Assembly: GCA_008016945.1 (NCBI GenBank)
Contig: SSGN01000004.1
Span: 1-12,147, forward strand
DNA length: 12,147 nt
Reading direction: 5' to 3'
Source of the DNA: Flavobacteriales bacterium
Lineage (GTDB): Bacteria; Bacteroidota; Bacteroidia; Flavobacteriales; PHOS-HE28
Under the pieces are notes generated by a model. That model saw only the letters and a program-made list of their open reading frames with translations. It did no database searches and had not been told where the DNA came from. Made by a program: the position numbers and the translations under genes. Of this stretch, positions 1-12,147 are shown piece by piece; position 1 is the stretch's first letter; each line of letters begins with the position of its first letter.

Positions 1-138
1 CGCTTCAGCGGAATCGACGGTGCTGACGCGATAGCCGTTCGAGCGCAGGCGCAACGAAAGCAGGCGCAGCAGATCGGGATCGTCATCGACCACCAGCACA
101 TGTGCCGAGGCCGGTTCGAGCAAGACAGCGAGATTCAT
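1..138 (-). CDS. glrR: GlrR/QseF-like response regulator, N-terminal fragment
   Basis: Only the first 46 codons are in the window; the gene continues past the left edge. The visible part is the start of a receiver domain: a hydrophobic strand, then the acidic pocket (HVLVVDDDPDLLRLLSLRL), then NGYRVSTVDSAEA. This closely resembles the start of E. coli GlrR (AHLLLVDDDPGLLKLLG...SEGY). GlrR is a sigma-54-dependent activator with receiver, AAA+ and DNA-binding domains, phosphorylated by GlrK. The phospho-acceptor Asp and the later domains are outside the window, so the sigma-54 class rests on this similarity and on the kinase/QseG neighbours. The start ATG overlaps the lipoprotein stop by 4 bp (ATGA) and has an AGGAG-type ribosome site about 7 bases upstream. 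It is the last visible gene of the operon. Confidence 0.8.
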   Translation of the reverse strand, partial: MNLAVLLEPASAHVLVVDDDPDLLRLLSLRLRSNGYRVSTVDSAEA

Positions 139-701
139 CGCGGGTTCTCCTGGGCACCTTTCGGCACCCGCTGCGTACTGGGGGTTGGCAGGCTGCGCTC
201 GATCGCCGACAGTGCATCGAGCTTTTCCTGCAGCTGGTCCTGGCGACGCTGCGCATCGCGCGATTGCGCCTCGAGACGCAGTCGTTCGCCGTATTGCTCA
301 TGCAGCAGGCGTGCCAGCGGCACGAGATAAGCGGCAGAAGGATGCGGACTCTTCAGCACCGCCTCCAGCGCCGACTGTGCACGGGCCAGTTCGGGAGGGC
401 GCGCCTGCCCGAGCTGGATCGCCAGCTGCATGAGCAGATAGGGATCCCTGGGCAGCGGCCGTTCACGCGGCGCAGCAGCGGGGGCACGCGCATTGTTGCC
501 GTAGTAGGCCAGCATCGCGCGCAATGAAATTTCCTCGGGTGCGGTGGTGGACGGCCGCACCGCTTCGTCGACCGGCACGCATTGCGGCGGCGGCACTTCG
601 TCCGCCACACGCTCGCGCTCGGCAAGCCCGGCGCATCCGGTCAGCAGCACCACGCAGAAAAGAAACCAGCGTGGGCAGCAACCCAGTCGATCAGGCTTCA
701 T
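135..701 (-). CDS. qseG: QseG-like outer-membrane lipoprotein
   Basis: A 188-residue protein with a short basic start, a hydrophobic stretch (about residues 12-22) and a clear lipobox LTGC at residues 20-23, so Cys23 should be the lipidated residue after signal peptidase II. The +2 residue is Ala, which fits outer-membrane sorting. The middle is Ala/Pro/Arg-rich and partly helical. The last third (about 133-172) is charged and Gln/Arg/Leu-rich with a probable coiled coil. Weak conservation, size and position between glrK and glrR match QseG (YfhG), which in enterobacteria binds and stimulates the kinase GlrK/QseE. The start at 701 is chosen because it gives the signal peptide and has GGAG about 8 bases upstream, inside the end of the upstream kinase (11-bp overlap). 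The frame stays open further upstream, but only as a shadow of the kinase gene. Confidence 0.75.
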   Translation of the reverse strand: MKPDRLGCCPRWFLFCVVLLTGCAGLAERERVADEVPPPQCVPVDEAVRPSTTAPEEISLRAMLAYYGNNARAPAAAPRERPLPRDPYLLMQLAIQLGQARPPELARAQSALEAVLKSPHPSAAYLVPLARLLHEQYGERLRLEAQSRDAQRRQDQLQEKLDALSAIERSLPTPSTQRVPKGAQENPR

Positions 702-1497
702 ACGGCAACTCCATGCGGAAATGGGCACCCTGCGGTGTCGGCAACAGATAGACCCGTCCGCCCTGCGCGGCGGCCACCTCGCGCACGATGGACAGACCGA
801 CGCCGCTGCCGTGCGGGCCAGCGACCGGGCGTCGTCCGCCCTGCACGGAGGGAGCGAAGATACGGGCGATGTCCGCGGGCGCAACGCCGGGGCCGGCATC
901 GATGCAATCGATGAACAGCCTGTTACCCTCAACGGGCGCGACGGCAAAGCGGATCTCGCCACCGACCGGGCTATAGACGATGGCGTTCGACAGCATGTTC
1001 GAAAGCGCGACGCGCATCTTGTCCGGATCGAGACAGGCCTGCCCGCAATGGCAGTCGATCGTGACGCTCAGCTTCTGCCCCTGCAGTTGCAGGCGATGCG
1101 AGGCCACCACGCCTTCCAGCAGGGCCCGGAGATCGACGCGACGGCGCTGCACCACCACGGCATCCAGCACTGTCGCGTGGTAGTTGAGCAACTCCTCGAT
1201 CTGGCATTGCAGCACCGCGGTGTTGTGTTCAAGGATGCCGGTCACCTCCCGCTGCTCGGCCGTCAGCGGCCCGACGACCTCGTCGCGCAGCAGCGACACG
1301 CCCTCGCGCAGCGCCGCCAGTGGTGTTTTCAGTTCGTGCGACAGATGGCGCAGTACGCGTGCGCGGTCCGCTTCCAGCTCCGACAGGCGATGAATGAGCA
1401 GACGACAGAGTTCGTTGCCGGATTTCGCCGCAGCGATCATGCAACCGGGATCGCCAAGCGCGCCGGCATCGCTGATCGCGTCAGTCTCAGGATTCAT
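691..1497 (-). CDS. Second GlrK-like kinase, soluble truncated duplicate
   Basis: A 268-residue histidine kinase core without a signal peptide, membrane segment or HAMP. Residues 1-38 are a unique leader. From about residue 39 it follows the upstream kinase closely: LEADRARVLRHLSHELKTPL with His54, then VGPLTAEQREV and LLNYHATV. The ATP-binding domain keeps the N box (NMLSNA, about 167-172), G1 (DAGPG, 200-204) and G2 (GSGVGLSIVRE, 230-240). The F-box region reads IFAPSVQ where the upstream kinase has IFDPFVQ, so ATP-lid function may be altered. The start ATG at 1497 overlaps the stop of the upstream kinase by 11 bp and has GGAG about 8 bases before it; an ATG further upstream in this frame would lie within the first kinase gene. 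It probably arose by tandem duplication. It could form heterodimers with GlrK, phosphorylate GlrR from the cytosol, or be a decaying copy; the intact motifs argue against simple decay. Confidence 0.88.
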   Translation of the reverse strand: MNPETDAISDAGALGDPGCMIAAAKSGNELCRLLIHRLSELEADRARVLRHLSHELKTPLAALREGVSLLRDEVVGPLTAEQREVTGILEHNTAVLQCQIEELLNYHATVLDAVVVQRRRVDLRALLEGVVASHRLQLQGQKLSVTIDCHCGQACLDPDKMRVALSNMLSNAIVYSPVGGEIRFAVAPVEGNRLFIDCIDAGPGVAPADIARIFAPSVQGGRRPVAGPHGSGVGLSIVREVAAAQGGRVYLLPTPQGAHFRMELPYEA

Positions 1498-2887
1498 GGG
1501 GAAGCTCCATGCGGAAATGGGCGCCACGAAGGCGAGGAAGCAGATAGACACGGCCATCATGTGCGGCAATCAGTTCGCGCACGATCGACAGGCCCACACC
1601 GCTGCCGGGCGGAGCCGATTCCGGGCGCGCCGGTCCCTGGACGAAGGGATCGAAGATCCGTTCGGCATCGGCGGCCGGAACACCGGGACCGTCATCGATG
1701 CAGTCGAAATACAGCATGCCGTCCGCGATCGTTGCCGCGAGCACGATTTCGCCACCCTCGGGGCTGAAGGCAATCGCGTTCGAGAGCAGATTGCCGAGGG
1801 CAACCGCCAGCTTGTCCGGGTCGAGACAGGCCTGCCGGCGCTCCGCCTCGACACGGATGCTCAACGATCGCGCCTGCGACTGCAGGCGCTGGGCATCCGC
1901 GACCTGCTGCAAGAGGTCAGGCAGCAAGATGCGCAGGCGCCGGAGATGCCCGGCATCGAACACTGTCGCGTGGTAGTTGAGGAGATCGACGATCTGGCGC
2001 TGCAGCGCCCGCGTGTTGTGCTCCAGGATTACCGCAACCTCACGCTGATCGGCCGTCAGCGGGCCGATCACCTGTTCCTGCAGGAGCGCCACACCCTCGC
2101 ACATTGCAGCCAGTGGTGTCTTCAGCTCGTGCGAGACATGGCGCAGCACGCGCACACGATCGGCTTCGAGGTCGGCAAGGCGCTGACGCAGCCAGTCGAG
2201 GCGCTGGCCAAGACGCTGCAGGTCATCCGGCCCGCGGATTTCGATCGGCGCCTCGAACTGCCCGGCGCCCAGGCGGCGGATCGCCGCCTCCAGCGCCAGA
2301 ACCGGCCGAGCCAGCCACCAGCCGATCACCAGTGCGATCGCCAGCGCCGCCGCGACGGCCGCCAGCACCTGCACGGCGAGCGTACGCCGGTTTCTTTCCA
2401 GTTCATCCAGCAGGGTCGCGTTGTGCGCATCGATCCATTGCCGGCCGGCTTCGGCGAGGCGCGCATTACGCACCCCCAGTTCCGCCAGCGCGGCCAGTGC
2501 GGCCTCGCCTTCATTGCGCGGCAAGGCGGCCGCGGCGGCCTGAGCTGCCTGCTGCCAGCCCTCGGCTGCCACGTCGATCGGCGCAATGCCGAGCTTGCCG
2601 ACGCGATCCAGATGCTGTGCAGCGAGTGCCATCGTTGCCGCGTATCGCTCCAGCAACTGCGGCTCCTGCAGCACGAGATACTGGCGCGCGCTACGCTCCA
2701 GATCGACACTCCGCTCTGCCAATTGCCCGATGTCAGCCGTGATCTGGACCGCCCGTGCCGCGCCTGCCCGGCTGCGCTCGGCGAATTCGTCGAGAACGCG
2801 CAGCCCGCGCCAGGCCGCGGCGCCAAGCAGCAGCGACACCAGCAAAAAGCCGAGAAGCAGGGTCAGGCGGAAGGAAAGTCGGCGCAT
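1487..2887 (-). CDS. glrK: GlrK/QseE-like membrane sensor histidine kinase
   Basis: A 466-residue inner-membrane kinase. It has TM1 at about 8-25, a helical Ala-rich periplasmic sensor of about 145 residues, TM2 at about 171-192 and HAMP at about 190-240. The dimerisation domain has phospho-acceptor His253 in RHVSHELKTPLA, and the ATPase domain has the N box NLLSNA (366-371), G1 DDGPG (398-402), F box IFDPF and G2 GSGVGLSIV. Features shared with E. coli GlrK include GPDDLQRLGQRLDWL (GPSELRSVGQRILWL in E. coli) and the EGVALLQEQVIGPLT region. Start 2887 (MRRLSF) is preferred because it places the first membrane helix normally. An in-frame ATG at 2995 would add 36 residues of atypical sequence and overlap the regulatory box. 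The usual partners, QseG and GlrR, follow. GlrK senses envelope state in enterobacteria; the signal here is unknown. Confidence 0.9.
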   Translation of the reverse strand: MRRLSFRLTLLLGFLLVSLLLGAAAWRGLRVLDEFAERSRAGAARAVQITADIGQLAERSVDLERSARQYLVLQEPQLLERYAATMALAAQHLDRVGKLGIAPIDVAAEGWQQAAQAAAAALPRNEGEAALAALAELGVRNARLAEAGRQWIDAHNATLLDELERNRRTLAVQVLAAVAAALAIALVIGWWLARPVLALEAAIRRLGAGQFEAPIEIRGPDDLQRLGQRLDWLRQRLADLEADRVRVLRHVSHELKTPLAAMCEGVALLQEQVIGPLTADQREVAVILEHNTRALQRQIVDLLNYHATVFDAGHLRRLRILLPDLLQQVADAQRLQSQARSLSIRVEAERRQACLDPDKLAVALGNLLSNAIAFSPEGGEIVLAATIADGMLYFDCIDDGPGVPAADAERIFDPFVQGPARPESAPPGSGVGLSIVRELIAAHDGRVYLLPRLRGAHFRMELPHES

Positions 2888-2976
2888 CGGGCGTCGTTCG
2901 CTCGTCGGATAGGAAATTGCGGAAGGCCATGGAAACTGCTGCGAACTGTACGCAGCCGGCGCGGTCGCCCGCAAAC

Positions 2977-2994
2977 TGTCGGGCATTGGCGACA
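2977..2994. promoter_or_regulatory. GlrR-type operator TGTC-N10-GACA
   Basis: The sequence reads TGTCGGGCATTGGCGACA, a perfect match to the TGTC-N10-GACA form reported for GlrR sites upstream of glmY in enterobacteria, and it is a dyad TGTCG-N8-CGACA. It lies about 160-200 bp upstream of the expected start of the sigma-54 transcript of bactofilin, a normal distance for an enhancer-binding protein. It also abuts a possible -10 hexamer of the kinase operon. I saw no second copy of this box in the intergenic region. Binding is inferred from the motif and the adjacent glrR-like gene. Confidence 0.6.
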
Positions 2995-3010
2995 CTATAA
3001 ATCACAAACA

Positions 3011-3023
3011 AATCAACGAACTG
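3011..3023 (+). promoter_or_regulatory. IHF-like site
   Basis: AATCAACGAACTG matches the IHF consensus WATCAANNNNTTR at all but one fixed position (CTG instead of TTG) and sits in an A/T-rich patch between the GlrR-type box and the sigma-54 promoter. IHF bending there would be typical for a sigma-54 system, and glmY of E. coli also uses IHF. One short degenerate match is weak evidence. Confidence 0.3.
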
Positions 3024-3043
3024 AAGAAATTCAGGGCTGCCAC

Positions 3044-3061
3044 CGTAGCCCACCGGCTACG
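3044..3061. repeat. Short perfect hairpin in the control region
   Basis: CGTAGCC and GGCTACG form a 7-bp perfect inverted repeat around a CACC loop. No T-run follows on either strand and no transcript ends here, so it is not a terminator. It may be a copy of a dispersed palindromic element or a protein site; one copy in this window cannot decide. Confidence 0.35.
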
Positions 3062-3150
3062 CCCCCGATGCTGGCACACCTGCGCAGCAGCATCGACGAT
3101 ATTGCGCCACACCCATGATTTGAAACGATTTACGTCATAAATTCCGGCGC

Positions 3151-3165
3151 TGGCACGGAGATTGA
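3151..3165 (+). promoter_or_regulatory. Sigma-54 (-24/-12) promoter of bactofilin
   Basis: TGGCACGGAGATTGA matches the RpoN consensus TGGCACG-N4-TTGC. The -24 element is perfect, the spacing is exact, and the -12 element has TTGA in place of TTGC. Transcription would start near 3175-3178, leaving a leader of about 25 bases before the bactofilin ATG at 3202, with the ribosome site inside it. No convincing sigma-70 promoter was seen in this position. The activator is probably the GlrR-like protein encoded by the divergent operon. Confidence 0.7.
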
Positions 3166-3201
3166 ATAGGACATCGGACGACCAACCAAGGAGCCCTCCT
3201 G

Positions 3202-3771
3202 ATGTTCAACAAGACGAACAACCCCTTCAGCAAACCGAGTGCAGGCGCCACAACCGCCTCCCTGCCGCAGAACACGGCGCCAACCGGCGCCATGCGGCCG
3301 GCTTCGCCGGCTCAGGCAACGGCCCGCCCGAGCGAGACGGCGAACATGGGCGGCACCGCTCCGCCGCCCGCGCCGGCAGTCGCCGAGAGCGGCAGCCGCC
3401 TGATCGTAGGCCCCGACGTAAAACTGAAAAGTGCCGAAATTCTCGATTGCGACACCCTCGTCGTGGAAGGGCGGGTCGAGGCAACGATGGACAGCCGCGT
3501 CATCCGCATCGCGGAGCACGGCATCTATGCCGGCAAGGTCAGCATCGACATCGCGGAGATCCATGGCCATTTCGAGGGCGAACTGACGGCACGCAGCCAA
3601 CTGCTCATCCACGCCACCGGCAAGGTCAGCGGAAAGGTGCGATACGGCAAGATGCTGATCGAGGAAGGCGGGCAGATTTCCGGCGAGATCCGGTCGCTCG
3701 CCGAGGAGGAACTGCCAGCCGCACGGCCTCGCCCTGAAGTACTGGCCAGCGTCAAGACAGCGATGAGCTGA
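3202..3771 (+). CDS. Bactofilin (polymer-forming cytoskeletal protein)
   Basis: A 189-residue protein with the usual bactofilin plan. An unstructured Ala/Pro/Ser/Thr-rich N-terminus (about 1-66) is followed by a right-handed beta-helix core (about 67-165) starting at RLIVGPDVKLKSAEILDCD and continuing through LVVEGRVEA, GHFEGELTA and GKVSGKVRYGKMLIEEGG, with regularly repeated Gly and short strands. A short polar tail ends the protein. Bactofilins polymerise without nucleotide, often at the membrane, and scaffold cell-wall enzymes and shape features in Caulobacter, Myxococcus and Helicobacter. No membrane helix is visible. AAGGAG lies 8 bases before the ATG. The gene stands alone between a sigma-54 promoter and a strong terminator, so it is probably a single-gene unit. 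Family assignment is confident; its exact cellular job here is not known. Confidence 0.9.
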   Translation: MFNKTNNPFSKPSAGATTASLPQNTAPTGAMRPASPAQATARPSETANMGGTAPPPAPAVAESGSRLIVGPDVKLKSAEILDCDTLVVEGRVEATMDSRVIRIAEHGIYAGKVSIDIAEIHGHFEGELTARSQLLIHATGKVSGKVRYGKMLIEEGGQISGEIRSLAEEELPAARPRPEVLASVKTAMS

Positions 3772-3798
3772 CCGGCGCACCGCCGTCCCATTCTCCCT

Positions 3799-3849
3799 GG
3801 CGTCGCGGGCAGCGCACTCTCCTCCGCCTGTGCCCGCGGCGCCTTTTTT
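3799..3849 (+). terminator. Intrinsic terminator after bactofilin
   Basis: A 13-bp stem is formed by GGCGTCGCGGGCA (3799-3811) and TGCCCGCGGCGCC (3831-3843), all paired with one G-U wobble, around a 19-base loop. It is followed directly by six T (3844-3849). This is a textbook rho-independent terminator and isolates bactofilin from the downstream gcvR-like operon. Confidence 0.9.
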
Positions 3850-3971
3850 CATCACCACGCCCTGCACTCTCGCCTGACGGCGGGCCGGCAAACCCGAACG
3901 GGACTGCACCGCATCTCTGACTGACTTCCCCCCCCGCCCCCGCTTACCGCTGAATTGGCCATCCGGCGCGC

Positions 3972-3977
3972 TACAAT
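3972..3977 (+). promoter_or_regulatory. Possible -10 element of the gcvR-like operon
   Basis: TACAAT lies 34 bases upstream of the ATG at 4006 and is close to TATAAT. No good -35 hexamer is found at 16-18 bases; TTGGCC at 3955 is too close. The rest of the 234-bp gap holds the bactofilin terminator and a C-rich run (3928-3940), with no other gene visible. Confidence 0.35.
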
Positions 3978-4005
3978 CTCGCCTTCCAGAAAGCAGGAGC
4001 ACGCC

Positions 4006-4530
4006 ATGTCCGAAACCCTCGTCCTCACCGTCATCGGCAACGATCGTCCGGGACTCGTCGAGCAACTCGCCACGACGATCGCCGCCAACCAAGGCAACTG
4101 GCTCGAGTCGTCGATGGCCCACCTTGCCGGCAAGTTCGCCGGCATTGTCCGCATCGACGTTCCGGCTGGCCGTGTCGACGCGCTCAAGACAGCGCTCGCG
4201 ACCCTCGACGGCCTGCGCGTCACTGCCGAAAATGCAGGCAATCCAGCCGCTGCGGAGGGGCATCGCCGCCTCAAGCTGTCGCTGGTCGGCCATGACCGGA
4301 TCGGCATCGTCCGCGAGGTCTCGCAGGTGCTCGCCCGCCATGCGGTCAACGTCGAGGAACTGAACACGCATACGGCCAGCGCACCGATGTCGGCCGATAT
4401 CCTGTTCCACGCCACCGCCGAGCTGACCGGTGCCGCCGCACTTGACGCACTGGCCCTGATCGCTGATCTCGAGCGCCTCTCGAACGACCTCATGGTGGAC
4501 ATCCAGCTCGACGAAAGCATCCGCCGCTGA
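4006..4530 (+). CDS. GcvR-like protein with two ACT domains
   Basis: A 174-residue soluble protein made of two ACT domains (about residues 4-75 and 88-165). Each begins with the typical strand and turn: LVLTVIGNDRPGLVEQLA in the first and LKLSLVGHDRIGIVREVSQVL in the second. This arrangement is that of the GcvR family, in which E. coli GcvR binds glycine and blocks the activator GcvA of the glycine cleavage operon. No DNA-binding domain is present, so it would act through a partner or by sensing an amino acid. The start at 4006 has AGGAG 6 bases upstream; an in-frame TTG at 3955 has no such support. Its stop overlaps the next start by one base (TGATG), indicating coupled translation with a lipoyl-domain protein, which fits a glycine-cleavage or related C1 theme. 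Confidence 0.8.
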   Translation: MSETLVLTVIGNDRPGLVEQLATTIAANQGNWLESSMAHLAGKFAGIVRIDVPAGRVDALKTALATLDGLRVTAENAGNPAAAEGHRRLKLSLVGHDRIGIVREVSQVLARHAVNVEELNTHTASAPMSADILFHATAELTGAAALDALALIADLERLSNDLMVDIQLDESIRR

Positions 4531-5832: not shown

Positions 5833-8800
5833 TTATTCAGACAGCCCGGAGCGCGCGGCATCCACGGGCTCCGACCCGATTGCCGGCAGCCACAGCGTGA
5901 CCGTCGTACCGGCGCCGGGGGTACTGGAAAAATCGAGCACGCCGCCGTGGAGCTCGACAATTTCCTGAACGATGCTCATGCCCAGCCCCGTACCGGGAAT
6001 CTTTCCGGACGTATCGGCACGGTAGAAGCGCTCGCAGATCCTCGCCAGCTGCTCGCTCGTCATGCCGATGCCGCGGTCGCTGATGCGGACACCGAGCATC
6101 CGCGGCGAGGCTGAATCCTGTTCCGTAGCAAGCGGACGTTCGACGATTTCCATCTCGACAGCGCCACCCGCCGGCGAATATTTGTAGGCATTGGAGAGCA
6201 CGTTGGTGATCGCCTGCGTCAGCTTCTTCGTGTCGCCGCGCACCACGCCCGCCACCGACCTTGCCGACACGAGCGGCGCCGCACGTCCGCCGGGCGGATG
6301 GAAACTGGCCAGGATCCGTTCGATCAGCAATGCGACGTCAACCCGCTCGAAGACGAAGTCCTTGCCACGGCGCGACTCGATTCGCGCCAGATCGAGCAAC
6401 TCGTTGATGATCGAGATCATGAGCTCCGACTGGCGGTAGATCGCACCCAGGAATTCCGCCTGTTCCTCGGGCGCAAATTTTTGGGCAAGCATCAGTTCCG
6501 AGAAACCGTAGATCGACGCCATCGGTGTCCGCAGTTCATGCGCCGCGGTCGACAGGAACTCGCTCTTCATCTGATCGACTTCGGTTTCGTACGTCACGTC
6601 GCGGAAATAGAGAATCTGGGAAACGCTCTCACCCTGGGCGACGCGAATTCCAGCCTCGAGGACGCGCTTTCCGGGACCGGCAAGCTCGATCAACTGGCGC
6701 CGATGATGCCCGGCCGCCTCGCCAGCATTCTCCTGTGCGATGAAACTGGCGCGCAGCTGCGCGAGGCCGGGGAAGCGCGCTTGCGGAACGCAGGCACCGG
6801 CGAGCAGATCGGAAAAGGCGGCTTCATCCATGCCGGCAATCGTGGCTTCGTCAATGCCGGTCATGCGGTGGAAGGCCGGCGTCGCATAGCGGACGCGGCG
6901 TGTCGCATCGAAGGAGACGAAACCGTCCGGGCTGAGCGAGAAGATGGCGTCCAGTTGCTCGTTGCGATCCCGGATGCGCGCCTCGGATTCGCGGCGCTCG
7001 GTGATATCGGTGTGCGAACCCGACATGCGCACCGGATTCCCGGTCGCGTCGAACATTGCCTTGCCACGGCAGAGAATCCATTTGTAGCCGCCATCCCTGC
7101 AGCGCAGGCGGAGCTCGGCGGCATACAGCGGCGTCTTGCCGGTCAGGTGCCGCTGCATCTCCACGAGCACGCGCTCGAGGTCCTCGGGATGCACAAGGCG
7201 CTGCCATTCCGAGATGTCGCTGCCGATCTCGTCGATGGCATAGCCGAGCATCGATTTCCACTGCTCGGAGAAGAAGGCTTCGCCGGTCGTCGTATTCCAG
7301 TCCCAGATGCCGTCGTTGGCACCGCGCACCGCCAGTTCGAAACGCAGCTCGCTTTCCTGCAGCGCCTGCTCCATGTGCTTGCGCTCGGAGATGTCGCGGG
7401 CGAAGCCGACGGTGCCGATCACGTTTCCACTGTCGCCGATCACGGGCTTCTTGTAGGTCTCGATCCAGCCGGCGGCCGCGCCACTGGCGACAGGCTCCTC
7501 GACGGTCACCTCGCGGCGCCCCGCCATGACGGCAAGGTCGTCGGCGATATATTTCTCCGCCAGCTCAGCGGGCCAGACATCGCGATCGGTCAGGCCGACG
7601 ACGGACTCGGGACCGGGCTGCCCGCAGGCGTCGGAGAAGACCTTGTTGACGGCCAGGAAACGGCCGTCTGAATCCTTGAGCCAGAAGAAGAACGGCAGGT
7701 TGTCGAGCGTCGCCCGCTGATAGAGCTCTCGCAGGCGAAGGTTCTCGGCCGTGTTCTTCAGCTCGGTGATGTCGATGCGGTTGCCGACGATATAGCCGCT
7801 CGGCGTCCGGTGCTCGATGATCAGCAGCCAGCGTCCGTCGCCAAGCCGCTGCTCGATCATCTGCCCGGATGCGGACTGATGCGCGGCCACGCGGCTCGCC
7901 ACCCATGCGTCAATGTTGCCGATGGCCTCGGTGTACTGGCCACGCTCCGCCCCCTTGCGGACGATGTCCTCGAAGCGGGCACCGGGCACGATCAGGTCGC
8001 GGCTCTGCTCGTAGAAGCTCAGGTACGCCTCGTTGCAAAGCACCAGGCGATCGTCGTCGTCGTAGATCGTGAAACCGACCGCGATGCTCTGTACCGCCTC
8101 GCGCAGCAGCTTGCTGGCACGCTCGGCTTCCTGCTGGCTTTCTTCGAAATCCCGCGTCCGTTCGGCCACGAGTTCCTCGAGTTCACCATAGGATTCGCGC
8201 AAGCGGGCGACCATCGTATTGAATGCTGCCGAGAGACGGCCGAATTCGTCATCGCCACGGGCGGGCAGCCGGCCGACCGGTCGCCCGGTGGCGGCGATGG
8301 CCTCCGCCGCGGAGGCAACCTCGCTCAGCGGGCGGGTGATATAGCGGGTGCCGACGCGCGCGATGAGTGCGACGCCGGCCAGCACGACGACACCGATCGC
8401 GATATAGATCGCCAGCAGGAGGTTGAGCTTGCTGAAGACCGTGGCACGGTCCCGTGCCAGGCCGAGCGTCAACCCGAGTTCGTCGACCGGATGCGGCAGC
8501 TTGAGCTGTGCACGCAGCTCGATGGCGTTGTCGGCGGGCAGTTTGCCAGCGTGCAGCTTGCCGCTGGCATCGACGAGGTAGCGGGCGTCGGCCCAGTCGC
8601 CATTGCCGAGCAGCGCCGCGAGCGGTACGCGCAGCACGACGCCGCCCTCGATGTTGCCCGTCAGGCGATAGCGGACCGGCAGCATGACGACGATGGCGGG
8701 GCCTTCCAACGGCATCCGATCGAGCAACGCCCGCGCCCTGCCATCCTCGATCATGGCGAGGAATTCGGCTGTCGCCGAAACGTCGCCACTCGTCGGGCGC

Positions 8801-9186
8801 GAACTTGCCGCCGTCCTGCCCTGATAATCGGCGACCAGCAGATCGGCGCCGGGGATGCCGAGCGACTGGTTGCGCAGCAGCGGGAAGAGGTAGTTTTCCC
8901 GTCCGAAGGAATCGGCGAGCGCATTGGCCGTCATCGTATTCGCCGCCAGCGATGCCGCCAGCGAGAAAGCGTTGCCGAAGCGCAGCTCGATCTCACGCTG
9001 CTCATTGTGCGCCTTGGCCGCCAGCATCTCCTCGGTATGCGAGAGCAGCTGGTGGCGGGAATAGACATACGACACCAGCGTGACCGCACCGCCGATGGCC
9101 GTCGTCGCGACCAGCAGCACCGCGATCAGCTTGGCGCGCAGGCCCAGCGTATCGAAGGACGACAGGAGGCGACGGACCAGGGACAT
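5833..9186 (-). CDS. Multi-PAS membrane sensor histidine kinase
   Basis: A 1117-residue kinase. TM1 is at about 20-42, followed by a periplasmic sensor of about 210 residues (Cache-like by layout), TM2 at 254-276 and HAMP at 277-345, then a short coiled coil. Four PAS units follow: about 365-475 (NEAYLSFYEQS, PAS-7-like), 490-600 (ends GTVGFARDISERK), 615-730 (WDWNTTTGE, HPEDLERV, ends GSHTDITERR) and 740-865. His883 lies in AAHELRTP; the ATPase has NVLSNAYKYSP (995-1005), DRGIGM (1037-1042) and GTGLGMSIV (1065-1073). All catalytic motifs look intact. No receiver domain is fused and none is encoded nearby, so it is an orphan here. Its ATG overlaps the binding-protein stop by one base, implying a stoichiometric link with that protein. 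The signal is unknown. Confidence 0.92.
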   Translation of the reverse strand: MSLVRRLLSSFDTLGLRAKLIAVLLVATTAIGGAVTLVSYVYSRHQLLSHTEEMLAAKAHNEQREIELRFGNAFSLAASLAANTMTANALADSFGRENYLFPLLRNQSLGIPGADLLVADYQGRTAASSRPTSGDVSATAEFLAMIEDGRARALLDRMPLEGPAIVVMLPVRYRLTGNIEGGVVLRVPLAALLGNGDWADARYLVDASGKLHAGKLPADNAIELRAQLKLPHPVDELGLTLGLARDRATVFSKLNLLLAIYIAIGVVVLAGVALIARVGTRYITRPLSEVASAAEAIAATGRPVGRLPARGDDEFGRLSAAFNTMVARLRESYGELEELVAERTRDFEESQQEAERASKLLREAVQSIAVGFTIYDDDDRLVLCNEAYLSFYEQSRDLIVPGARFEDIVRKGAERGQYTEAIGNIDAWVASRVAAHQSASGQMIEQRLGDGRWLLIIEHRTPSGYIVGNRIDITELKNTAENLRLRELYQRATLDNLPFFFWLKDSDGRFLAVNKVFSDACGQPGPESVVGLTDRDVWPAELAEKYIADDLAVMAGRREVTVEEPVASGAAAGWIETYKKPVIGDSGNVIGTVGFARDISERKHMEQALQESELRFELAVRGANDGIWDWNTTTGEAFFSEQWKSMLGYAIDEIGSDISEWQRLVHPEDLERVLVEMQRHLTGKTPLYAAELRLRCRDGGYKWILCRGKAMFDATGNPVRMSGSHTDITERRESEARIRDRNEQLDAIFSLSPDGFVSFDATRRVRYATPAFHRMTGIDEATIAGMDEAAFSDLLAGACVPQARFPGLAQLRASFIAQENAGEAAGHHRRQLIELAGPGKRVLEAGIRVAQGESVSQILYFRDVTYETEVDQMKSEFLSTAAHELRTPMASIYGFSELMLAQKFAPEEQAEFLGAIYRQSELMISIINELLDLARIESRRGKDFVFERVDVALLIERILASFHPPGGRAAPLVSARSVAGVVRGDTKKLTQAITNVLSNAYKYSPAGGAVEMEIVERPLATEQDSASPRMLGVRISDRGIGMTSEQLARICERFYRADTSGKIPGTGLGMSIVQEIVELHGGVLDFSSTPGAGTTVTLWLPAIGSEPVDAARSGLSE

Positions 9187-10385
9187 CAGCGCGTCCCGCT
9201 GTCGATCGAGCGCAGCATGCCGTCCGCACCATAGCGCCCGAGGCGAACGGCCTTGCGGTCGAGCGCCTCATGGCGCTCCGGCGTAAACGGGCGTGCATAG
9301 CGACGCAGCAGGCCGTCGTAGGCGTCGAGTCGCTCAAGTGCGCTGCGCAGGGCCGACCGGTCGAGGCTGCCGGCCTTGCGAATCGCACGTGCCAGAAGAT
9401 GCGTCAGGTCGTAGGCATGTGCGAATCCCACCTGCCCATGCAGCTCGCCGATCTCCTGACCGAAAACCTGACGGAACCGGCTGGCTACGTCGCGCGCCCT
9501 CGCGCCGCGCGGATCCGCAAAGCTGAAGGTATGCACGACCGACAGATCGACTTCCTGCAGCGCCTTGCCGGTGGCGGCAGCGAAATCCCCGCCGAGGATG
9601 CCCCAGTGCGAGAGTATCGGGAGCCGTTCCGCCGCCGGCAGCTCGGCCATCCTGCGCACGATCGGCGCGCCCTCGGCTTCGTTCGCTACCATCACCAGCG
9701 CCTGTGCACCGGCTGCCCGCGCCTGCCCGATGCGCTCGCCGAGATCGGTTTCACCCCAGTTGTGCCAGTAGGTGGTGTGCACCATTCCACCGTGCTTGCG
9801 TTCCCACGCCAGCATCGCCGCTTCGCTGCTGCGCCCCCAGGCCGTGTTCGGCGCGAACAGCGCGAGCCGGCTGAAGCCACGCTTGCGTGCGGCCTCCAGC
9901 ATGGCCTCGATCGCCCACGTGTCGATCAGGGACAGGCGGAACACATTGTTGCCCGCCGCCGGATTCGACGTGATCGGATCCGCCGCCGCCCAGGGATCGA
10001 GCAACAGCAGACGCTGCCTGCCGGCCACCTGCGAAATCTCGATCGCCACCGGCGAAAAGCGTCCGCAGAAAACTGCCGCGACATCTTCCCTGCCTGCGAA
10101 GGTGATGTAGTTGTCGACACCGCGGGCCGGAACGCCGCGGTCATCGGCGGTTTCAAGGGCCAGCTTGCGGCCGTCGAGTACGCCCCCCGCCGCGTTGATT
10201 TCATCGATGGCGAGCCGGATGCCCTTTTCGATCGATTGCGCCGCATGGCTTCCCTGCACGCCGAACTCCGCCGTCAGCCCGATGACGACCGGCGAGGGTT
10301 CGGCGGCGAGTGTCCGCCACGAAAAAAGCATGCCGCTGAGCCAAATGATCGCCACGACCATGCGTACGAAAATTTGACGTGTCAT
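9186..10385 (-). CDS. Periplasmic Leu/Ile/Val-type substrate-binding protein
   Basis: A 399-residue secreted protein with a Sec signal peptide (about 1-28, cut after TLAA). It then has the type I periplasmic fold: IGLTAEFGVQGSHAAQSIEKG, LAIDEINAAGGVLDGRKL and ETADDRGVPARGVDNY are the family opening, as in LivJ/AmiC-like proteins. No permease or ATPase gene is present; the protein is flanked by a c-di-GMP enzyme and a sensor kinase, so it more likely presents a ligand to the kinase than feeds a transporter. The ligand cannot be read from the sequence. Start 10385 is chosen for GGAGGGGG about 6 bases upstream. An ATG at 10409 overlaps the upstream stop as ATGA and would add 8 residues; it could be used for coupling. 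Confidence 0.88.
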   Translation of the reverse strand: MTRQIFVRMVVAIIWLSGMLFSWRTLAAEPSPVVIGLTAEFGVQGSHAAQSIEKGIRLAIDEINAAGGVLDGRKLALETADDRGVPARGVDNYITFAGREDVAAVFCGRFSPVAIEISQVAGRQRLLLLDPWAAADPITSNPAAGNNVFRLSLIDTWAIEAMLEAARKRGFSRLALFAPNTAWGRSSEAAMLAWERKHGGMVHTTYWHNWGETDLGERIGQARAAGAQALVMVANEAEGAPIVRRMAELPAAERLPILSHWGILGGDFAAATGKALQEVDLSVVHTFSFADPRGARARDVASRFRQVFGQEIGELHGQVGFAHAYDLTHLLARAIRKAGSLDRSALRSALERLDAYDGLLRRYARPFTPERHEALDRKAVRLGRYGADGMLRSIDSGTR

Positions 10386-10405
10386 CGAATCCCCCTCCGG
10401 CTTGT

Positions 10406-12147
10406 TCATTGCTGTGCGCTGGCAGCCAGGCTGCGCGCTTCCGCCTTCGACGACAGCCAGAGCGACAGCATCTCCGGCCGCATCGGCCTGCCGGTCAGGA
10501 ATCCCTGGATGACCTGGCATCCCTGGCCGGAGAGCAGCGCGTACTGCGCATCGGTCTCGACGCCTTCCGCCACCAGTTGCACACCCAGCGCCATTCCCAT
10601 GTTGAGCACCGCCGCGGTGATCGCCTCGGCGCGCGAGCAGCCTTCCCTTTCCAGTTCGCTGATGAAGCTGCGATCGATCTTCAGGCTGTCGATCGGGAGA
10701 TTCATCAGCCGGGCAAGGCTGGAATAGCCGGTCCCGAAATCGTCGATCGCGATCTTCACCCCGAGCTCGCGCAGGCGTGCCAGCTTCCCGCGATCCGCAT
10801 CGAGGTGCTGCATGATTTCCGACTCGGTGATCTCCATCTCGAGGCGGTTCGCGGCAATGCCGTGGCGTGCCAGCGCCGAACGGATGCTCTCGACGAGGAG
10901 CGGATCCCGCAACTGGCGCGGGGAAAGATTCACCGCCATCGTCAAGGATGGCAGCCCGAGGCCGTCCCAGGCCGCCAGCTGCGCGCAGGCCGCCTGCAAG
11001 ACCCATTGGCCGATGGAAAGGATGAGGCCGCTGCGCTCCGCAACGGGAATGAAGTGGGCCGGCGGCACCTGCCCGAGCTTGGGGTGATCCCAGCGCAGCA
11101 ATGCCTCGACGCCGAGGACGCGACCGCTGGCCGCCGCGATCTGCGGCTGGTATTCGAGACGAAGCTGCCCGCGCTCGAGAGCATGGCGAAGCTCCGTTTC
11201 GAGGTGCAGTGCCTCGCCGGGTGCGCCGTCGAACGAATCGAAGACCACATGGGTATTGCCACCGAGCGACTTGGCCACGTACATCGCCGCATCGGCATGC
11301 TTGAGGAGCAGCGCCTCTTCGTCACCATGCTCGGGATACGTTGCACAGCCCAGGCTGGCGCCGATGAACAGCTCGTTGCCATCGATCTGCATCGGCTGGC
11401 TGACGACATCGATGACCTTGTTGCTGACGACGGCAATGGCTTCGTGGCCGGCCAGTTCGGGGGCGATGATCACGAATTCATCACCGCCCAGCCGTGCCAC
11501 CGTATCCACTTCGCGTACGGCCATCGCGAGACGCGCGGCCGCCTCGCGCAGGACGATATCCCCGATTTCATGCCCGAGGGAATCGTTGATCTGCTTGAAG
11601 CGGTCGAGGTCGATGAAGATCAGCGTGAAGCGGCCGGCGTTGCGGCGCGCCTGCGCCACGGCCTGCTCGAGACGATCGTTGAAAAGTAGGCGATTCGGCA
11701 GGCCGGTCAGCATGTCGTGATGGGCGAGATACGACATGCGGCGCTCGGCCTGCAGGATGCGCGACAGATCGGTGAACACCGCGATGTAGGCGATGGTCTG
11801 GCCATTCCCATCGCGGGCCGCGTTGACGGTCAGCCATTCCGAGAAGATCTCGCCATTCTTGCGGCGATTGTAGATTTCGCCCTGCCAGTAGCCCTTCTCC
11901 TGCAGGGATCTCCAGAAACTCGTGTAGAACCCGGCATCGTGCATGCCGGAACGCAGCATCGTCGGCCGGCGACCGACGGTTTCATCGGCGGAATATCCGG
12001 TAATGCGCGAAAACGCCGGATTGACCGCCAGGATCTCGCCACCGACATCGGTGATCATCACCGCTTCGGAGGTTTCCTTGAACACCATCGACGAAATCTG
12101 CGATTCGAACTGGATCTCCCGGATGCGGGTGATGTCGCGCAGGACCC
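10406..12147 (-). CDS. PAS-GGDEF-EAL c-di-GMP enzyme, N-terminus cut off
   Basis: About 579 residues are visible; the frame stays open to the right edge and reads VLRDITRIREIQFESQ, the end of a preceding PAS and a linker, so the true start is outside. Next come a PAS domain (MITDVGGEILAVNPAFSRIT, ending near YIAVFTDLSR), a GGDEF domain with intact GGDEF and an RxxD inhibitory site (REVDTVARLGGDEF), and an EAL domain with EALLRW, NLSPRQL, EITESEIM, IDDFGTGYSS, LKIDRSF, AEGVET and QGFLTGRP. Both synthesis and breakdown motifs look complete, so the enzyme may be bifunctional and switched by its sensors. No membrane segment is in the visible part. Its stop lies 20 bases upstream of the binding-protein ATG, so it heads the visible part of the sensory operon. 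Confidence 0.93.
   Translation of the reverse strand, partial: VLRDITRIREIQFESQISSMVFKETSEAVMITDVGGEILAVNPAFSRITGYSADETVGRRPTMLRSGMHDAGFYTSFWRSLQEKGYWQGEIYNRRKNGEIFSEWLTVNAARDGNGQTIAYIAVFTDLSRILQAERRMSYLAHHDMLTGLPNRLLFNDRLEQAVAQARRNAGRFTLIFIDLDRFKQINDSLGHEIGDIVLREAAARLAMAVREVDTVARLGGDEFVIIAPELAGHEAIAVVSNKVIDVVSQPMQIDGNELFIGASLGCATYPEHGDEEALLLKHADAAMYVAKSLGGNTHVVFDSFDGAPGEALHLETELRHALERGQLRLEYQPQIAAASGRVLGVEALLRWDHPKLGQVPPAHFIPVAERSGLILSIGQWVLQAACAQLAAWDGLGLPSLTMAVNLSPRQLRDPLLVESIRSALARHGIAANRLEMEITESEIMQHLDADRGKLARLRELGVKIAIDDFGTGYSSLARLMNLPIDSLKIDRSFISELEREGCSRAEAITAAVLNMGMALGVQLVAEGVETDAQYALLSGQGCQVIQGFLTGRPMRPEMLSLWLSSKAEARSLAASAQQ

Follow-up and report, generated by a model that had tools for sequence, protein, structure and literature searches.

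Conserved GlrR-type boxes and a sigma-54-type -24/-12 element suggest control of bactofilin by a GlrR-type regulator

The region upstream of the bactofilin gene in the stretch of DNA analyzed here (12,147 nucleotides, hereafter the window) is, judging by its sequence, very probably a GlrR-dependent sigma-54 promoter. The original prediction that the GlrR two-component system is directed at bactofilin gains support from the conservation of the sites, from the resemblance of the regulator to GlrR, and from the presence of an encoded RpoN in all seven genomes of the window's genus. In particular, the conservation counts combined with the similarity of the regulator make GlrR control of bactofilin well supported by comparison.

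The bactofilin gene (3202-3771, plus strand) encodes a protein of 189 aa that matches Pfam PF04519 with 60.1 bits against a cut-off of 27.9, and is preceded by a Shine-Dalgarno sequence, AAGGAG, at 3188-3193 on the same strand. Divergent to it lies a gene for a glrK-like histidine kinase of 466 aa (1487-2887, minus strand) with HAMP, HisKA and HATPase_c domains, which shows 34% identity to E. coli GlrK over 445 aa. A small protein with a lipobox-like LTGC occupies the position of qseG (135-701, minus strand); it had no Pfam match, and no significant BLASTP match to E. coli QseG. The glrR gene follows on the minus strand (138-1), and the edge of the window cuts it, so that of the divergent operon with a GlrR-type regulator described in the original prediction, only the first 46 codons of the regulator gene are present in the window itself. 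The complete gene comes from the nearest genome examined (G001, in which 83% of sampled 31-letter words are common with the window), at L053:3860-5230 on the minus strand, and there the GlrR-like character of the product was borne out (see below). In the window as in L053, the genes stand in the order glrK, lipoprotein, glrR, and glrK is followed by an additional kinase-like ORF. In the window, this second ORF (691-1569, minus strand, behind glrK) contains HisKA and HATPase domains without HAMP, and its product is 40% identical to E. coli GlrK over 233 aa; two glrK-type kinase matches were found in G001 and G006, and only glrK in the regions examined of G002, G003, G004 and G007. At 5833-12088, on the minus strand, a PAS-rich histidine kinase, a periplasmic binding protein ORF and a PAS-GGDEF-EAL protein stand in a row, likely a separate signalling cluster. 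A search of the whole window against Rfam at gathering thresholds found nothing.

The intergenic region contains a distal GlrR-type box, TGTCGGGCATTGGCGACA, at 2977-2994, which is, as originally described, an exact TGTC-N10-GACA, and is the sole one in the window; under dinucleotide shuffling, 0.0023 exact boxes would be expected in the 308-nt region. This sequence conforms to the consensus of the GlrR upstream activating site and is a candidate site of this kind, the consensus tested (TGTC-N10-GACA / TGTN12ACA) being that given in the accessible parts of PMC8745638 and PMC6075780. A second box, absent from the earlier account, lies 67 bp after the first, at 3044-3061 (CGTAGCCCACCGGCTACG). This proximal box is degenerate; across the genus, 7 of its 18 columns do not vary, and its position resembles that of the second exact box of relatives, which lies 65-69 bp from the first among the best 80 of 578 loci. 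The predicted order of box, IHF-like site, promoter and bactofilin is as stated, and the IHF-like site is indeed present between the two boxes, at 3011-3023 on the plus strand (AATCAACGAACTG), where it agrees with eight of the nine specified positions of the IHF consensus, WATCAANNNNTTR. However, the site is weak: about 12% of shuffles reach its score, and we do not regard it as significant, its function being uncertain. The site includes AATCA, an invariant run in the genus, and on the reverse strand the motif might belong to a glrK promoter.

The sigma-54-type -24/-12 element is located at 3150-3166 on the plus strand and reads CTGGCACG-GAGA-TTGAA (in full, CTGGCACGGAGATTGAA); the Shine-Dalgarno sequence follows after about 20 nt and the bactofilin start codon after about 35 nt. 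The -24 portion, TGGCACG at 3151-3157, is perfect, in accord with the original prediction, and carries the characteristic GG; the -12 portion, TTGAA at 3162-3166, departs from the consensus in that GA, instead of GC, is found ten bases past the GG, both in the window and in all eight genus sequences. Hence the element aligns with and resembles sigma-54 promoters but falls outside the strict consensus. TGGCACG alone is not rare, with nine copies in the window on both strands together; TGGCACG-N4-TTG is expected 0.001 times in the 308-nt region under dinucleotide shuffling. Among the 48 exact-box promoters that were scored in the best 80 of 578 loci, positions -13/-12 were GC in 46, GT in one (L121) and GA in one (L058), and the lone GA promoter belongs to a member of the window's genus. 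The GA at -12 is therefore a conserved deviation of the genus, and it may tune the bactofilin promoter there. Other sigma-54 promoters, such as pspA, also lack GC at -12. A second TGGCAC, with no matching -12, is present at 3072-3077 on the plus strand, downstream of the degenerate box and upstream of the promoter.

Conservation within the genus was assessed over eight sequences, those of the window and of seven genus genomes. The distal box is exact in six of the eight sequences and takes the form CGTC in the other two, and all eight have CTGGCACG-N4-TTGA with A or T as the next base. When the near-identical row of G001 (L001) was dropped and the remaining seven rows were compared, the invariant runs of at least four columns were GTCG and CGACA, which belong to the two halves of the box, AATCA, CTGGCACG and TTGA, with no others in the alignment. 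These observations bear on the best surviving alternative, to which we assign a low probability, namely that the promoter of this genus is being lost or survives as a weak variant after drift of both the -12 and the proximal box, with bactofilin expressed mostly from another promoter. Indeed, the promoter may be weak in the window's genus because GA at -12, so different from the nearly universal GC of the 48 scored promoters, is combined with a degenerate proximal box. However, the -24 and the TTGA are invariant over the seven genus rows, compared to only 23 of the 254 columns outside the elements, a difference that looks like constraint rather than decay, and a sigma-70 scan of both strands of 2880-4010 found no match that could serve as the other promoter.

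The preferred reading, a GlrR-dependent sigma-54 promoter of bactofilin, draws much of its support from more distant relatives. The original prediction had proposed searching for the box and the -24/-12 element upstream of bactofilin genes in related genomes, and such a search bore it out. A bactofilin alignment scan of named genomes yielded at least 578 confirmed loci, and the best 80, which include two of the window's genus (L057 and L058), were analyzed; among the names in their titles are Thauera, Azoarcus, Aromatoleum, Dechloromonas, Azonexus, Methyloversatilis, Accumulibacter and Denitromonas, as well as Chitinimonas, Amantichitinum, Methylobacillus and one Moraxellaceae MAG. The region scored comprised the 420 nt before the start codon, and the strict -24/-12 was sought in the last 140 nt. 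Among these best 80 of 578 loci, the exact box was found in 64 upstream regions and was absent in 16 (mean of 200 shuffles, 0.28), tandem boxes in 32 (shuffle mean, 0), the strict -24/-12 in 52 (1.68), and the box together with the strict -24/-12 in 46 (0). The arrangement is also constrained in distance, the nearest exact box starting 92 or 93 bp before the TGG in 22 of the 48 scored regions from the best 80 of 578 loci. For a few loci (for example, L100, L136 and L096), the start codon might be miscalled, an error that would shift boxes, not create them.

Simpler patterns are less informative. The numbers of single TGTCG-N8-CGACA boxes, compared to the control, were 18 versus 18 in G007, 17 versus 14 in G064, 7 versus 9 in G018 and 44 versus 19 in G012, and because three of the four genomes show no clear enrichment, a single box is weak evidence alone. 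Similarly, a box followed at 60-90 by TGGCAC was found in 54 of 199 family genomes, and many of these matches are due to chance because the reversed control matched 31 of 199 (counted by hand); G001 itself matched through the second TGGCAC (window 3072-3077), which lacks a -12.

The location of the box between two divergent genes raises a less probable alternative, one that we consider improbable: that the box serves the glrK-glrR operon by autoregulation and that bactofilin is a mere neighbour. The box begins 90 nt before the glrK ATG (2887), and the AT-rich block beside it reads TATAAT on the glrK strand in four of the eight genus sequences (L003, L005, L006 and L007), as autoregulation might suggest, although the sigma-70 scan described above found no match on either strand. 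The arrangement of promoters across relatives argues against this alternative. Among the best 80 of 578 loci, glrK is divergent to bactofilin in 60, and the box is present in 56 of these 60; of the same divergent loci, 44 of 60 carry the strict -24/-12 in the orientation of bactofilin and only 2 of 60 in that of glrK. We therefore reject glrK autoregulation as the sole role of the box; control of both sides, glrK and bactofilin, by the same box might still occur.

Loci in which bactofilin is separated from the two-component system provide further evidence against autoregulation. In the best 80 of 578 loci, the box was found in one of the four loci with only a glrR-like gene nearby, which counts against the preferred reading; the exact box is kept in seven of the 16 loci with neither glrK nor glrR nearby (L096, L098, L116, L120, L121, L124 and L134), where "nearby" refers to matches within 6 kb a side, or less at contig ends (1.2 kb before bactofilin in L134). 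Compared to 78 of 3654 control windows, in each of which both strands were counted and some of which may be true GlrR sites (they contain 14 pairs), 7 of 16 corresponds to a binomial p of about 2e-8. Tandem boxes with a spacing of 65-67 bp were detected, at a tolerance of one mismatch, in L096, L098, L116, L121, L124, L134 and L135. A GlrR search of 24 genomes, those of the 16 and the 4 loci and of four others, found a match with E below 1e-120 in 20, and no such match in the genomes of L096, L106, L127 and L131; among these four, the exact box is found in L096 only, and in L106 a shorter match of the GlrR type (58% over 332 aa) adjoins bactofilin. Conversely, the Methylobacillus loci L078, L095 and L103 come from genomes that encode GlrR, yet show no exact box before bactofilin.

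The regulator itself, as read in L053, looks like a GlrR orthologue by sequence comparison. It shows 59% identity to E. coli GlrR over 436 aa, contains a receiver domain (PF00072) and a sigma-54 activator domain (PF00158), both over the cut-off, and the GAFTGA motif, and has a Fis-type HTH_8 domain that scores 21.1 bits, just below the cut-off of 22. The recognition helix is NRTEFYRLL here and NRTEFYKLL in E. coli, RNRTEFY being common to both, within helix-turn-helix segments that read GNVSDAARLADRNRTEFYRLLQKHEL and GNVTHAARMAGRNRTEFYKLLSRHEL, respectively. The NCBIfam GlrR model NF011695 ranked first among 113 models, with a lead of 195 bits on the next; its score of 628.8 bits is below the curated cut-off of 763. 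Genomes of this kind encode several sigma-54 activators, so that another one, for example a PrsR-type or NtrC-type protein, might use the box. However, this appears even less plausible than autoregulation given the nearly identical recognition helix, the rank of the GlrR model, and the same form and similar spacing of the GlrR sites at E. coli glmY. Finally, the notion that the palindrome and the -24/-12 both arose by chance has a negligible probability: the nine copies of TGGCACG in the window and the near-background numbers of single boxes in three of four genomes speak for it, but it is contradicted by the conservation counts in the best 80 of 578 loci and by the invariant runs in the genus.

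The arrangement upstream of bactofilin closely parallels that of known GlrR targets. In the accessible parts of PMC6075780 and PMC8745638, GlrR/QseF recognizes the consensus TGTCN10GACA and has glmY and rpoE as targets, with IHF assisting at glmY. E. coli glmY resembles the window in having tandem TGTC-N10-GACA boxes, a TGGCAC -24 and a location adjoining glrK (PMC6075780, accessible part). Its three boxes are at -230, -197 and -134, and its -24/-12, TGGCACAGTTACTGC, begins at -27, such that a spacing of 63 bp separates the two nearer boxes, compared to 67 bp in the window and 65-69 bp in relatives, and the distances from these boxes to the TGG are 170 and 107 bp, compared to 174 and 107 bp for the distal and proximal boxes of the window. 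There are also differences: glmY is a small RNA whereas the target in the window is a protein scaffold; three exact sites are present at E. coli glmY as opposed to one exact and one degenerate site in the window; and glmY runs in the same direction as glrK whereas bactofilin is divergent from it. The P2 promoter of E. coli rpoE, another GlrR target, is likewise envelope-related and has similar upstream sites, although it serves a different gene and the likeness is drawn from the description alone (PMC6075780, accessible part). In Proteus mirabilis, according to the accessible part of PMC8745638, the glmY-qseEGF locus shows the same consensus, TGTCN10GACA, with three putative QseF sites and two putative IHF sites, and one overlapping sigma-70/sigma-54 promoter; unlike the window, it forms one operon with glmY at its head, and that part of the source makes no mention of bactofilin. 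The mapped sites of another two-component system, NtrYX (RSP genes), include a region beside a bactofilin-family gene; however, the regulator is a different one, and the values for the bactofilin gene, 0.06 and 0.99, are read as no change (PMC7240162, accessible part).

These features lead us to infer the following course of events. An envelope signal would be received by the GlrK-type kinase, with the small lipoprotein in the QseG position, and passed by phosphorelay to GlrR. Phosphorylated GlrR would bind at 2977-2994 and, more weakly, at 3044-3061, and the bound regulator would loop to RNA polymerase held with sigma-54 at the -24/-12 element (3150-3166), where ATP hydrolysis by GlrR would open the polymerase-promoter complex. 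The transcript would start near 3177, which would place about 25 nt of leader ahead of the bactofilin start codon.

Additional sites of the same type are found elsewhere. Paired boxes with a spacing of 40-60 bp are present in 56 of 199 family genomes, compared to none in the reversed control among the matches listed, some of the matches having the appearance of coding repeats. Loci L193-L272, which comprise 30 loci from each of two pattern scans and 20 hand-picked regions, contain 43 distinct box-plus-promoter sites, of which 19 precede bactofilin, a proportion that is not an unbiased rate because the loci were selected; tandem exact boxes are present at 30 of the 43 sites, 16 of these before bactofilin. 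When ten non-bactofilin products were compared to Pfam, five were glycine-zipper proteins over the cut-off, three were BON proteins, one was a periplasmic binding protein and one had no match. GlrR-type boxes with a -24/-12 precede the glycine-zipper or BON proteins in L240, L255, L257, L259, L260, L261, L263 and L268, and L255 comes from the window's genus. With similar sites ahead of these small envelope proteins as well, bactofilin appears to be one of several members of an envelope regulon. The output of the system is probably an envelope-maintenance regulon, with bactofilin the most frequent target among the sites examined.

Several of these sites have peculiarities of their own. In L242 and L243, tandem boxes, one of them TGTCCGG-N4-CCGGACA, and a -24/-12 precede the periplasmic binding protein, and these boxes perhaps serve a different activator. 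The ORF without a Pfam match (74-75 residues; L253:1437-1664, minus strand, and L254:911-1135, plus strand) is found in G002 and G007, where its box starts 72 bp past the end of glrR and its -24/-12 has GC; an ORF of the same kind after glrR in G001 (L053 from 3650, minus strand) is preceded by apparent degenerate boxes and CTGGCACGAATGTGGC. In L224 (G025), tandem boxes and a promoter precede a 92-aa ORF that resembles the N-terminus of bactofilin only, and this ORF may be a decayed bactofilin because G025 has no bactofilin match.

The mechanism itself, with GlrR, sigma-54 and paired upstream sites, is already known, and bactofilin appears to be a new target of it. In the accessible parts of PMC7240162, PMC9218911 and PMC11819568, GlrR or sigma-54 control of bactofilin is not stated, and our search, which covered the open literature and few subscription papers, found no report of GlrR/QseF with bactofilin. 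The present results suggest a GlrR output set beyond enterobacteria that is concerned with the physical build of the envelope. To our knowledge, little has been established on how bactofilin synthesis is controlled, and the sites described here tie bactofilin to an envelope-sensing two-component system in a directly testable manner. On balance, we favour the view that in Rhodocyclales and their neighbours, GlrK-GlrR functions as an envelope-architecture switch, with bactofilin, glycine-zipper and BON proteins as its main outputs and bactofilin in the place of glmY. If so, the same sensor would be wired to wall supply in enterobacteria and to wall scaffolding in Rhodocyclales and their neighbours.
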